From assembly GCF_005843985.1 (NCBI RefSeq), contig NZ_CP040463.1, forward strand, positions 794,001 through 858,000: a stretch of DNA of 64,000 nt, written 5' to 3'. The DNA comes from Caminibacter mediatlanticus TB-2 (GTDB lineage Bacteria; Campylobacterota; Campylobacteria; Campylobacterales; Nautiliaceae). The notes beneath the pieces are model-generated. The model searched no databases. It was not told the DNA's origin and saw nothing but the letters and a program-made list of their open reading frames with translations. The position numbers and the translations under genes were made by a program. Shown here piece after piece: positions 27,335 through 35,857 of this stretch (positions are counted from its first letter, which is position 1; every line of letters begins with the position of its first letter).

Positions 27335-27634
27335 ATGAATTTAGAAGAGTTAATTAAAATTGGAGTTGGTGGAGTTTTTTTAGCAAAAGAAAAATTAGAA
27401 GAATTTATTAATGAAGCAAAAAAAAGAGGAGAAATTACTGAAAAAGAGGCTGAAAAATTAATTGAAGAGCTTAAAAAAAATTCAGAAGAGAAATTAATTG
27501 AGCTTAAAAAATTAATATCTGAGGAGGTGAAAAAACAATTAAATGAATTAGGTCTTGCTACAAAAGAGGATATAAAAGAGTTGAAAAAGGAAATTGAAGA
27601 GATTAAAAAGTTATTAACAAATAATGAGAAATAG
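27335..27634 (+). CDS. Phasin-like small coiled-coil protein
   Basis: A 99-residue, Lys/Glu-rich, almost wholly helical protein. The N terminus MNLEELIKIGVGGVFLAKEK resembles small phasin-family proteins commonly encoded beside UbiB/ABC1 kinases. I choose the ATG at 27335 because of the strong aaggagggg just upstream; an in-frame ATG at 27263 would run inside msrA. Its last bases overlap the following ABC1-kinase gene by 11 nt, implying coupled expression. Its molecular role is not established. Confidence 0.75.
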   Translation: MNLEELIKIGVGGVFLAKEKLEEFINEAKKRGEITEKEAEKLIEELKKNSEEKLIELKKLISEEVKKQLNELGLATKEDIKELKKEIEEIKKLLTNNEK

Positions 27635-29241: not shown

Positions 29242-31089
29242 ATGAAACAAAATATTTTAAAAAATTTACAAAAAAGAGTAAGTGCTTTTGGTGTTTATGA
29301 TGATTTTTTTGTAGTAGTTGATGAAATAAATCGTGTTTTATTTTTTTCAAAAAATTTAATAATGCAAAAAGGATTTAAATTAAAGCTAAGTCCAAATAAT
29401 CCAAATGAAAAATCAACAAAATTTTCAAAATATTTTAAGTATTTAATAATTACAAATAAAAATGTTGTGAATTTATTTGATTTAGAAAAGAAAAAATTTG
29501 TTTATAAACTTGAAAACAAATATGATGTCTTATCAGTCTCTATTGATAGAAATAATAGATATTTAGCTATTGGTGATATTGATGGAAGAGTTGTCTTGTA
29601 CAATATTGTTATAAAAAAAGAGATTTCAAAAATAATTAAACATAAAGATTTTATAAGTGACTTGGATTTTTGTGAGTTATCAAATGAAATAATTGCTGGG
29701 AGTTATGATAAGGCAGTTTTATTTATTAATACTTCTAATTTTGATAAAAAAGAGAGATATTTACATATTAAAAAAGTAAAAAAAGTAGAAGAAAAAGAGT
29801 ATGTAGTTAGTTGTGATGAGATAAGTGATACCATAAAATGGGATGTTTTAAAATTTGATAGTAAGGATAGAGTTGATTTTTATAGAGATTTTAAAGATTT
29901 TTTTATTGATAAAGAAATATTAGTGATGTTAACTTCAAAAAAGATTATTCTTTATGATTTAGAAAAAGAAGTTATTTTAAATGATAATTTTTTAGAAATT
30001 ATTTTGGGAGATAAAATAGCAGTTTTTAATAATTATCTTTTGATTTCTCTTGAAAATGGATTGGTGTATTACTATAATCTTTTAGAAAATGAAAGCGAAT
30101 TATTAGATTGTATTTTAAAGGAAGATTTTAAAAAAGCGTATGAATTAATTGATAAAAATCCATTTTTAAAAAGAAGTAGAGGGTATGAAAAATTAGAGAA
30201 GTTAGTTGAGTTAAAAATAAAAGAAGCTAAAAAAATTTTTGAAATTGACCCAATTAAAGGTGTTGCATCACTTCAAAAACTTCTTGAAGTGCCTTTTTTA
30301 AGAGAAAAAATACAAGAAATAATAAATCATTATACAAATTTAGTTAAATTTAAAAAGGCTATTTTAAGTGGAAATTATGTGTTAGCTTATGAATTAGCAA
30401 ATAAATATCCTCTTTTAAAAGAGACAAAATATTATGAAATTTTAGAAAAAAAATGGGAGTTAAGTTTGGAAAAAGCATTAAAATTGCTAAAAGAAGGAAA
30501 AATTATACAGGCAAAAGAAGTTTTACAACCATTTAGAGGAGTATCATCGAAATTAGAATTAATTGAATTAGTTTTAAAAAAATATGAATTAATATTTTTA
30601 CTTAAAGAAAAATTAGCAAAAAGAGATTTTAAAGGTTTTTTTGATTTAATAAAGAATCATCCTGAGTTAAAAGAGACAAAAGAATATAAAAAAGTAATAG
30701 AGTATGCTAATAGACTTTATGAAAAAGCAAAAGAATATTTAAAAAATGAAGAATTTGAAAAAGCAAAAAAAATAGCCTTAACACTTTCTCAAATACCTCC
30801 TTTTGAGGAAAAAGCTGAAAAAATTCTAAGAAGAATAGAAATTATTTTAAGACTTTTATCATTTATTTCAAATAAAGAGTATGAAAAGGTCTTTGAATAT
30901 GTAAGGTTATATCCATTTTTAAAAGAGTTAAAAAGTTATAAAGAGTTTATTAAAGAGTATGAAGAGAATGTATTTAAAGCTGAGGTTTTAATGAGCAAAG
31001 GAAAAAAAGAAGAAGCAAATAAACTTTTAAATAGTTATAACAATAGGTTTACATCAAAAAGAATAGAAAAGATAAAATCTTTATTTTAA
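29242..31089 (+). CDS. WD40-like propeller protein with four ~84-residue helical repeats (paralogue 1)
   Basis: A 615-residue protein with no signal peptide. Residues 1-290 show beta-propeller blades (DVLSVSIDRNNRYLAIGDID, IIAGSYDKAVLFI). From residue 296 four helical repeats follow, anchored at residues 296, 379, 463 and 547: AYELIDKNPFLKRS, AYELANKYPLLKET, FFDLIKNHPELKET, VFEYVRLYPFLKEL. Each is followed by a second helical unit with a G/A-rich turn (e.g. AKEVLQPFRGV). The chain ends within the fourth repeat. It is clearly paralogous to the gene at 33746. Propeller plus solenoid recalls eukaryotic coat proteins in layout only. Function unknown; a scaffold role is inference. It starts 1 nt after the ABC1-kinase stop. 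Confidence 0.82.
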   Translation: MKQNILKNLQKRVSAFGVYDDFFVVVDEINRVLFFSKNLIMQKGFKLKLSPNNPNEKSTKFSKYFKYLIITNKNVVNLFDLEKKKFVYKLENKYDVLSVSIDRNNRYLAIGDIDGRVVLYNIVIKKEISKIIKHKDFISDLDFCELSNEIIAGSYDKAVLFINTSNFDKKERYLHIKKVKKVEEKEYVVSCDEISDTIKWDVLKFDSKDRVDFYRDFKDFFIDKEILVMLTSKKIILYDLEKEVILNDNFLEIILGDKIAVFNNYLLISLENGLVYYYNLLENESELLDCILKEDFKKAYELIDKNPFLKRSRGYEKLEKLVELKIKEAKKIFEIDPIKGVASLQKLLEVPFLREKIQEIINHYTNLVKFKKAILSGNYVLAYELANKYPLLKETKYYEILEKKWELSLEKALKLLKEGKIIQAKEVLQPFRGVSSKLELIELVLKKYELIFLLKEKLAKRDFKGFFDLIKNHPELKETKEYKKVIEYANRLYEKAKEYLKNEEFEKAKKIALTLSQIPPFEEKAEKILRRIEIILRLLSFISNKEYEKVFEYVRLYPFLKELKSYKEFIKEYEENVFKAEVLMSKGKKEEANKLLNSYNNRFTSKRIEKIKSLF

Positions 31090-33745: not shown

Positions 33746-35857
33746 TTGGATGTAGTTAAAACTATTAATATTAAAAATAGTGTAAGTCGTATTAGACATT
33801 TTGAAGATAAAATAGGAGTTATTGATAAAAAAAACACTTATAGAATTTTTAAAATTGAAAATTATGAATTAGATGGTGGTTTTAGAATAAATTTACCAGA
33901 GAATAATCCAATAGAAAATAGTGTCGACATCTCTTCGAGTGGAAATTATTTAGCAATTGCTATTAAAGGAAAAAATAAAACTACAATTTGGGATATTAAT
34001 CAGAAAAAGCTTATTCATACATTAGGATGGCATAAAGGTGAAGTTTTAAGTGTAAGTTTTGATAATGAAGAAAATTATTTACTAACAGGTGGAATGGATG
34101 GAAGAGGATATTTATGGTCAATAGAAAGTGGTGGAATGGTTTTATCTTTACCTCCTCATCCAGACTATATTTTGGCTTCTTCTTTTAGCAAGAATTCTTT
34201 ATGGTGTGCTACTGGCAGTTACGATAGATTAATTTCAATTGTAAATATAACTTCAATTAATATAAATTATAGGAAAAAATCTCACAGAGGAGCAATAACT
34301 AAAATAATTTTTCTTAAAAAATATATGATAAGTGGAGATAAAACAGGAGAAATTATTGTTTGGGATTATACAAAAGGGAAGATAATAGCAAAGCTTAGTG
34401 GTGTGTCAGATATGGTAATAGATATGGTTACTGATGAAAAAGAGGAATATTTATTTGTTATTAGTAAAGAAAAAAAAGTTTATTTATATTCTTTAAATGA
34501 GTTTGAATTAGTAACAGATAAATTTATTAAATTAAATGAATTTCCAAGTTGTTTAGAGTTTGTAGGAGAAAAATCTGAATTATTAATTGGTACTTTAAGT
34601 AGTAGTATTTATGTTTATAATATTTTTTCCGATAACAAAAAATTAATTAAATTTATAAATGAAAATAATTATGAAAAAGCCTATGAATTAATTAAAGAAA
34701 ATCCTTTTTTAAAAAGAACTAATGAATATAAAACTCTTGAAGATAAGTGGAATAAGACTATTGAACTTGCTTACAAATTAATGGAAAAAGGAGATTATGA
34801 TAAAGCTAAGTTTATTTTAAAACCTTTTTTAGCTGTACCTCAAAAAAGGACAATTATTCAAAATATACTTAACGATTTTGGAGAATTTGAAAAATTCAAA
34901 CAAGCAGTACTTAAGTTGAAATATCCTCTTGCATATTCACTTGCTAATCAATATCCATCTTTTAAAGAGACAATTTATTATAAAAAAATGGAAAATGATT
35001 TTAAAAAAGTATTCAATAAAGCAAAAGAGTTGATTAAAATAAAAGGACAAGAAGAAAAAGTAAAAAAATTATTAATGCCTTTTAGAGGAGTTCCACAAAA
35101 AACACCATTAATTCAGGCACTTTTTAATGATAAACATTTATATGACTTACTTAATACGTTATTTTTAAAAAGACAATTTGATAAGTTTTTTGAGCTTATT
35201 TCAAGAAATCCATTTTTATATGAAAGTAGTGAATATGAAAATGCTATGAAGTATGCAGAGAAATTAGATAATGCAATAAGAGATTTTTTAAATAAAGGAG
35301 AATTTAAAAAAGTTATATCATATTCTAATATATTAAGGGATTTTCCAGAATATAAAGAAAAAGCAGAAGAATATATTAAAAAAGCAAAAGTATATATGAA
35401 TTTTTTAAATGCTCTTTCAAATAATAATTTTGATTTAATAGAGAAAATGGTAATAGATTATCCTTTTTTAATAGATACTAATGATTATCAAGATTATAAA
35501 AAAAATGTTACTAATAAATTTAAACAAGTAGAAAAATATTCTGCTTTTGGAGATGTAGAAAATATTTTAAAAATTATAAAAGATCTTTTAAAGTCAAAAA
35601 CATTTTATTATAAAATAATTGGATTGATTAAAAGTGCTTATCTAAATCAATTATTAAAGCTTTTACAAAAAAAAGACAAAAGTAAACTTGAAAAAGGAAT
35701 TAATAATTATATTTCTTATTTTGATATGGATAATGAGATAAAAGACATTATAAATATTGCAAATAAATTAAACTTAAATATAAAAGTTACTTCAAGTGAA
35801 AAAAACAAGCTAATTGACCTTGAATTTATGCCTAAGTTTATTTGGGAGGAGGCTTAA
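33746..35857 (+). CDS. WD40-like propeller protein with four ~84-residue helical repeats (paralogue 2)
   Basis: A 703-residue cytoplasmic-looking protein. Residues 1-300 contain clear WD-type blades (VLSVSFDNEENYLLTGGMDG, GRGYLWSIESGG, SGDKTGEIIVWDYTKGK). Four repeats begin near residues 309, 393, 478 and 562 (AYELIKENPFLKRT, AYSLANQYPSFKET, FFELISRNPFLYES, IEKMVIDYPFLIDT), alternating with units such as KLLMPFRGVPQK. About 60 extra residues follow the fourth repeat, unlike paralogue 1. The start is a TTG with aaaggag 5 nt upstream; the nearby ATG is out of frame. The 3' end overlaps convergent mobA by 48 nt. No function is known to me. Confidence 0.82.
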   Translation: MDVVKTINIKNSVSRIRHFEDKIGVIDKKNTYRIFKIENYELDGGFRINLPENNPIENSVDISSSGNYLAIAIKGKNKTTIWDINQKKLIHTLGWHKGEVLSVSFDNEENYLLTGGMDGRGYLWSIESGGMVLSLPPHPDYILASSFSKNSLWCATGSYDRLISIVNITSININYRKKSHRGAITKIIFLKKYMISGDKTGEIIVWDYTKGKIIAKLSGVSDMVIDMVTDEKEEYLFVISKEKKVYLYSLNEFELVTDKFIKLNEFPSCLEFVGEKSELLIGTLSSSIYVYNIFSDNKKLIKFINENNYEKAYELIKENPFLKRTNEYKTLEDKWNKTIELAYKLMEKGDYDKAKFILKPFLAVPQKRTIIQNILNDFGEFEKFKQAVLKLKYPLAYSLANQYPSFKETIYYKKMENDFKKVFNKAKELIKIKGQEEKVKKLLMPFRGVPQKTPLIQALFNDKHLYDLLNTLFLKRQFDKFFELISRNPFLYESSEYENAMKYAEKLDNAIRDFLNKGEFKKVISYSNILRDFPEYKEKAEEYIKKAKVYMNFLNALSNNNFDLIEKMVIDYPFLIDTNDYQDYKKNVTNKFKQVEKYSAFGDVENILKIIKDLLKSKTFYYKIIGLIKSAYLNQLLKLLQKKDKSKLEKGINNYISYFDMDNEIKDIINIANKLNLNIKVTSSEKNKLIDLEFMPKFIWEEA

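Follow-up and report, generated by a model that had tools for sequence, protein, structure and literature searches.

An unnamed family of Campylobacterota proteins with a predicted propeller-solenoid layout: candidate signalling scaffolds

The window, a 64,000-nucleotide stretch of the genome of Caminibacter mediatlanticus TB-2, a member of the Nautiliaceae, carries two paralogous genes, P1 and P2, whose products are 33% identical (Table 1). The open reading frame given for P1 in the initial annotation was recovered at the same coordinates and length, and its repeat region (30127-31086) corresponds to residues 296-615. P2 consists of a propeller, four full helical units (starting near residues 309, 393, 478 and 562) and a partial fifth unit. 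The product of the gene directly before P1 is one we take, by eye from its sequence, to be a UbiB/AarF-like kinase; for the small gene before that, both the start and the phasin-like name are presumed by eye. In the window genome and in one other (G006, contig C24), polA is flanked on both sides by P1 and P2. P1 and P2 lie apart from each other in other Nautiliaceae.

Table 1. Features of the P1-P2 locus, in positions of the window
Feature	Position	Strand	Evidence
P1, 615 aa propeller-solenoid gene (stop included)	29242..31089	+	ORF; AlphaFold2; orthologues in the same family of genomes
P1 predicted WD40-type seven-bladed beta-propeller, residues 1-282	29242..30087	+	AlphaFold2 strands; Foldseek; weak Pfam
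P1 helical unit 1, residues 296-378	30127..30375	+	Family HMM, model, profile comparison
P1 helical unit 2, residues 379-462	30376..30627	+	Family HMM, model, conservation
P1 helical unit 3, residues 463-546	30628..30879	+	Family HMM, model, profile comparison
P1 helical unit 4, residues 547-615, truncated	30880..31086	+	Family HMM, model
P2, P1 paralogue, 703 aa, TTG start	33746..35857	+	ORF, family HMM, AlphaFold2
Presumed UbiB/AarF-like kinase gene, end 1 bp from the start codon of P1	27624..29240	+	
Small coiled-coil, presumably phasin-like protein gene, upstream of the UbiB-like gene	27335..27634	+	ORF
polA (DNA polymerase I), between P1 and P2	31081..33702	-	ORF

The C-terminal part of P1 had been described as a series of four repeats with anchor residues 296, 379, 463 and 547, and self-comparison, hidden Markov models (HMMs) and AlphaFold2 all bear this out. 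An ungapped self-alignment of residues 286-615 gave top offsets of 251, 84 and 168, and the best self-comparison score was 6.75, against a maximum of 5.07 and a mean of 0.75 in 200 shuffles. The units of P1 are 20%-34% identical to one another over 70 aligned columns; shuffled units of the whole family, the control for this range, are 7.5% identical. Profile comparison of unit windows returned probabilities of 99.6 (unit 1 versus 2), 98.0 (2 versus 3) and 98.6 (1 versus 3). An HMM built from P1's four units alone found at least one unit (i-E<1e-3) in every one of the 89 relatives other than P1, and three or more in 69 of them. The same HMM found no unit in the 51 other proteins of the window, and it found units in 5 of 445 solenoid-shuffled controls; we take these five to be copies of a single fragment (L020), in which the shuffled part did not include the solenoid. 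A family-refined HMM places the units of P1 at residues 295, 378, 461 and 545, and those of most relatives near 309 (about 308), 393, 478 and 562, frequently with a partial fifth. Within the phylum, relatives (about 100) vary little in the number and phase of their units; a short subfamily has three. P1 ends about 75 residues short of most relatives, and its fourth unit is therefore incomplete; model confidence is low at residues 598-607.

Units with the same number in different proteins are on average 23%-35% identical, and different units of one protein 16%-26%, that is, equally or less alike. Since same-number units are at least as alike across proteins, a solenoid of four units probably existed before the paralogues arose. 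Conservation within the family is highest in unit 2, and Lys437 of P1, which follows the PF-x-x-V turn of this unit, is almost invariant. This conservation makes unit 2 a likely candidate for a binding site.

Structure prediction agrees with the proposed order, in which a regular helical solenoid comes after a propeller. AlphaFold2 models, run on a three-row alignment, reached a pLDDT of 81.9 for P1 and 85.8 for P2, with a pTM of 0.55 for each, a value at which the two halves are credible and the model gives no settled placing of propeller relative to solenoid. Both models begin with 28 strands forming seven blades, within the six to eight four-stranded blades expected of the propeller in membrane-coat architecture; in P1, these strands fall within residues 4-279. 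Each of the units that follow is modelled in the same five-helix pattern, with helices of about 10, 5, 22, 11 and 25 residues, and pLDDT in the solenoid is mostly 75-95. Foldseek lists for the full models are filled by WD40 propellers, with TMt up to 0.80 for the propeller of P1 and up to 0.86 for that of P2. In Pfam, P2 scores 51.8 bits for WD40 against a cut-off of 27, whereas P1, with weak propeller matches at residues 60-220, reaches 23.6 bits and stays below it. Both proteins are thus predicted to be seven-bladed WD40 propeller proteins, P1 by its modelled fold. The likeness to WD40 propellers such as RACK1, WDR61 and a Thermomonospora WD40 domain (5yzv) covers only the N-terminal half; our searches found the conserved solenoid in no protein outside the P1 family. 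We saw no signal peptide or membrane-spanning stretch in P1 or P2 (19-residue hydropathy maximum of 1.3 and 0.9, respectively), and neither their models nor searches of Pfam, NCBIfam and PADLOC gave a match to a catalytic family.

What is the helical unit? The initial annotation knew of no named family for it, and this holds for the helical part in Pfam and NCBIfam, as well as in PADLOC. It is not wholly without relatives, however, because its profile finds TPR proteins. Against the PDB, the best matches of the unit profile are kinesin-light-chain-type and consensus TPR proteins (E 1.5e-8), and TPR proteins also lead for the whole-solenoid profile (E 5.6e-5). These matches align to the hairpin formed by the 22- and 11-residue helices. 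Read by eye, both hairpins of the unit carry a G-x-x-x-x-A signature, part of a TPR-like A-xx-L-x-x-x-G-x-x-x-x-A pattern, and the P-[FL]-L-K turn noted earlier closes the second. With TPR proteins as the nearest solved sequences, the unit reads as two long TPR-type hairpins, which suggests that each unit is a divergent TPR-type double hairpin. The repeat itself is not that of TPR, which has 34 residues and two similar helices, whereas the modelled P1-family repeat has 84 residues and five helices. Pfam matches among 42 members are marginal (TPR_6 in 1, best E 0.0097; ANAPC3 in 2, best E 0.0027), and hhalign of the units, run against one TPR protein only, was weak (best E 0.008). Membership of a defence system was considered and rejected: P1 has no PADLOC match, and P2 matches HEAT-ARM_XIII of PADLOC with E 0.007, in its propeller.

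To our knowledge, Campylobacterota have no internal compartments. This matters for the layout, because an N-terminal beta-propeller followed by an alpha-solenoid has been called "membrane-coat architecture", and a 2010 screen of bacterial proteomes reported it only from eukaryotes and the PVC superphylum, tied to compartmentalised cells (PMC2799638). Coat proteins often have no sequence similarity to one another (PMC2799638). As modelled, P1 fits this architectural definition, and the order is also that of eukaryotic proto-coatomers (clathrin heavy chain, beta'-COP, Sec31, IFT and scaffold nucleoporins). The P1-family solenoid differs from theirs in being short, with four units of about 84 residues, and in having no significant sequence match to them. 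Among 42 members, Pfam matched Clathrin_H_link in 2 (best E 0.0014) and COPI_C in 1 (best E 0.011); neither these searches nor PDB profile searches gave a significant coat match, and proto-coatomer homology of the solenoid was rejected. The initial annotation had seen only the layout of proto-coatomers, not homology; the layout stands, and no homology was detected by sequence. The PVC membrane-coat-like proteins (Santarella-Mellwig 2010, PMC2799638) are likewise bacterial, with a propeller and then stacked helix pairs. The three detailed there have 1,039-1,287 aa and come from compartmentalised bacteria; compared with them by description only, the P1 family has about 560-790 aa, occurs in Campylobacterota and has a regular repeat and signalling neighbours. 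Could the family nonetheless form a bacterial membrane coat, polymerising or lying on the inner membrane to shape or organise it? Its published architecture would fit, and an IFT-A chain ranks second among the Foldseek matches of P1 with 699 columns aligned, but the TMq of that match (0.37) is not above that of bare WD40 propellers (0.40). Set against such a role are also the lack of a membrane segment and of a significant coat family by sequence, the coupling of the genes to cytosolic regulators and the lack of known compartments, and we consider it quite unlikely. The P1 family should not be filed as proto-coatomer, since only the layout matches. Indeed, a predicted layout this common in bacteria without known compartments becomes, taken alone, weaker evidence of kinship with eukaryotic coats.

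The solenoid profile detected the family in 119 of 397 Campylobacterota genomes (completeness at least 90%) and in 27 of 68 genera; the gene is missing from many of the sampled genomes. The P1 family thus appears, from sequence profiles, to be an unnamed family found across Campylobacterota, the phylum that was searched. In the literature searched on WD40 in Sulfurimonas, Wolinella or Arcobacter, no title or abstract concerned the family. A scan of named genome contigs for exact peptide patterns, which are strict, yielded one relative only, from a Nautiliaceae bacterium. An origin of the solenoid in phages or plasmids was rejected: tblastn of the P2 solenoid gave no match in the phages and plasmids searched, and the listed plasmid matches of full-length P2 fall in the propeller part. 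A tree of 100 sequences, made by a quick method and with some long branches, divides into clades A and B. The P1 and P2 groups are sisters inside clade A and contain only Nautiliaceae, which points to a duplication in Nautiliaceae within that clade. Gene order agrees with this placement: in one Nautiliaceae genus (L063), P1 is followed by one small frame and then by CoA-binding and ilvA genes, and these two precede the clade A gene in non-Nautiliaceae families.

The genes beside the family differ between clades, and include ubiB, msrA, polA, ilvA, dprA and recJ; they therefore name no single pathway. In clade A, ilvA often lies upstream, and in several genera a Ppx/GppA gene lies downstream, overlapping by 4 bp or abutting. 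At one locus (L178, G350:C12), the family gene occurs twice in tandem, with ilvA on one side and Ppx/GppA on the other. In related genomes P1 is close-coupled to its upstream gene; in other Nautiliaceae, a UbiB-like gene, a small phasin-like gene or msrA directly precedes it, and the UbiB-like neighbour recurs in several. A rival reading has no signalling role: the family would serve a single enzyme (Ppx/GppA, IlvA or UbiB) as its assembly chaperone or adaptor. Tight coupling in clade A to ilvA and Ppx/GppA, and in the window genus to the UbiB-like gene, would be expected of such a protein, but the REC/PAS pairs of clade B (below) and the change of neighbours between clades are left unexplained, which makes it unlikely.

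Other neighbours raise the possibility of a factor acting on DNA, several subfamilies having genes for DNA repair or uptake as neighbours. polA and P2 form a divergent pair in nearly all Nautiliaceae loci read, recJ adjoins one f7 subfamily, and dprA-ruvX adjoins one f2 subfamily. However, the divergent polA-P2 pair is not an operon, other subfamilies adjoin ilvA, Ppx/GppA, ispG or REC/PAS genes, and the charge of P1 and P2 is inside the spread of window proteins, so that this role is highly improbable. The case for an accessory scaffold of the flagellum or a polar organelle starts from P1 itself, which lies downstream of fliF-fliG-fliH-dxs, and from the order fliH-dxs-PAS partner-family gene in another family (loci of this kind being the window, L063 and L118). 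Yet dxs, msrA and the UbiB-like gene lie in between, and most members are far from flagellar genes; we hold this to be very unlikely.

Some loci have features of their own. In eight (L075, L077, L082, L087, L090, L098, L103 and L111), all from f2, the order is minD, a divergent polysaccharide deacetylase gene (PF04748, confirmed for L082), the family gene and dprA. In four (L078, L104, L110 and L121), a short member of 558-569 aa with three units lies downstream of a gene for a protein of about 600-650 aa. That protein, which we take by eye to resemble DUF342/FapA, had no match in Pfam (L078) or NCBIfam (L078 and L104).

Among the first clade B loci read, ten have a REC and/or PAS gene immediately before the family gene; it frequently runs into the start of the family gene, with an overlap of a few to about 25 bp. 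Such pairs span eight families (f2, f3, f4, f6, f7, f9, f10 and f13). A nine-row profile (A5) of the C-terminal degenerate-PAS domain of the upstream gene, searched against 298 genomes, gave 17 strong matches (E<1e-20) in 16 genomes. In 16 of the 17 cases a family gene follows directly, and the other match is in tandem beside such a pair. Four matches were weaker. The first (L182) adjoins a family gene; the second (L181) is at a contig end, with a family gene at the start of a further contig from that genome (G308:C38); the third sits inside an unrelated long frame; and the fourth (L180) was rejected as apparently false, being by eye a TorD-like helical protein. Across the 298 genomes, the domain is thus near-exclusive to neighbours of family genes. 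Nine sequences made up the profile seed, and seven strong matches, from seven of the 16 genomes, belong to one seed genus, so independent support comes mainly from absence elsewhere and from the pairs outside the seed, L172 (f3), L174 (f4), L175 (f10) and L182 (f7). The profile found no copy of the domain in P1's own genome. At two loci (L105 and L107), the family gene is embedded among several response-regulator genes. At three others (L171 in G248, L174 in G405 and L175 in G390), the family gene or its partner seems to be split, by a frameshift or an assembly error.

What might these proteins do? The reading we favour, and to which we give an even chance, is that P1 and P2 are soluble cytoplasmic scaffolds or adaptors that couple a regulatory protein to a target. 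First, propeller and solenoid are classical binding folds, and no catalytic family was matched. Second, there is no membrane segment, and the number of units is nearly fixed. Third, the genes are coupled to REC/PAS, Ppx/GppA and UbiB-like genes; several branches being encoded back-to-back with signalling proteins, a signalling scaffold is probable rather than a relative of vesicle coats. The solenoid would grip the regulatory protein encoded next door, with unit 2 as the best-conserved candidate site, and the propeller would provide another surface to which a target can bind. In clade B, the coupled protein would be a response regulator and/or PAS sensor with its private C-terminal degenerate-PAS domain, and in clade A it may often be the Ppx/GppA phosphatase. 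In the window genus, gene coupling makes the UbiB-like kinase the first partner candidate for P1. Physical binding, the assignment of ligands to domains and the same kind of job for P1 are what we infer beyond the computed fold, repeats, distribution, gene coupling and partner near-exclusiveness. Against the scaffold reading stand the lack of the partner domain in P1's genome, the differing neighbours of the clades, the seven of 16 partner genomes that come from one seed genus and the dependence of the degenerate PAS on a single nine-row profile.

A broader form of the scaffold reading, which we consider possible but doubtful, is a phylum-wide class of signal-controlled scaffolds, in which the REC/PAS protein docks onto the propeller-solenoid via its private degenerate-PAS domain. 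If so, this would be an undescribed mode of two-component output, with scaffold assembly in place of transcription or an enzyme, and the "membrane-coat" layout would have arisen in ordinary bacteria from WD40 and TPR-like parts. The tightly coupled REC/PAS partner would then be an unexplored signalling output, testable in culturable organisms.

A third match in the genome (C1:898461), outside the window, was excluded from the family as a WD40-GTPase-like protein with near-identical propeller repeats. Its gene (G000:C1:898218-900212; L003:1258-3252) encodes about a dozen such repeats and then a P-loop GTPase-like segment (LMLGDSGVGKTT), and the repeats look recently amplified.
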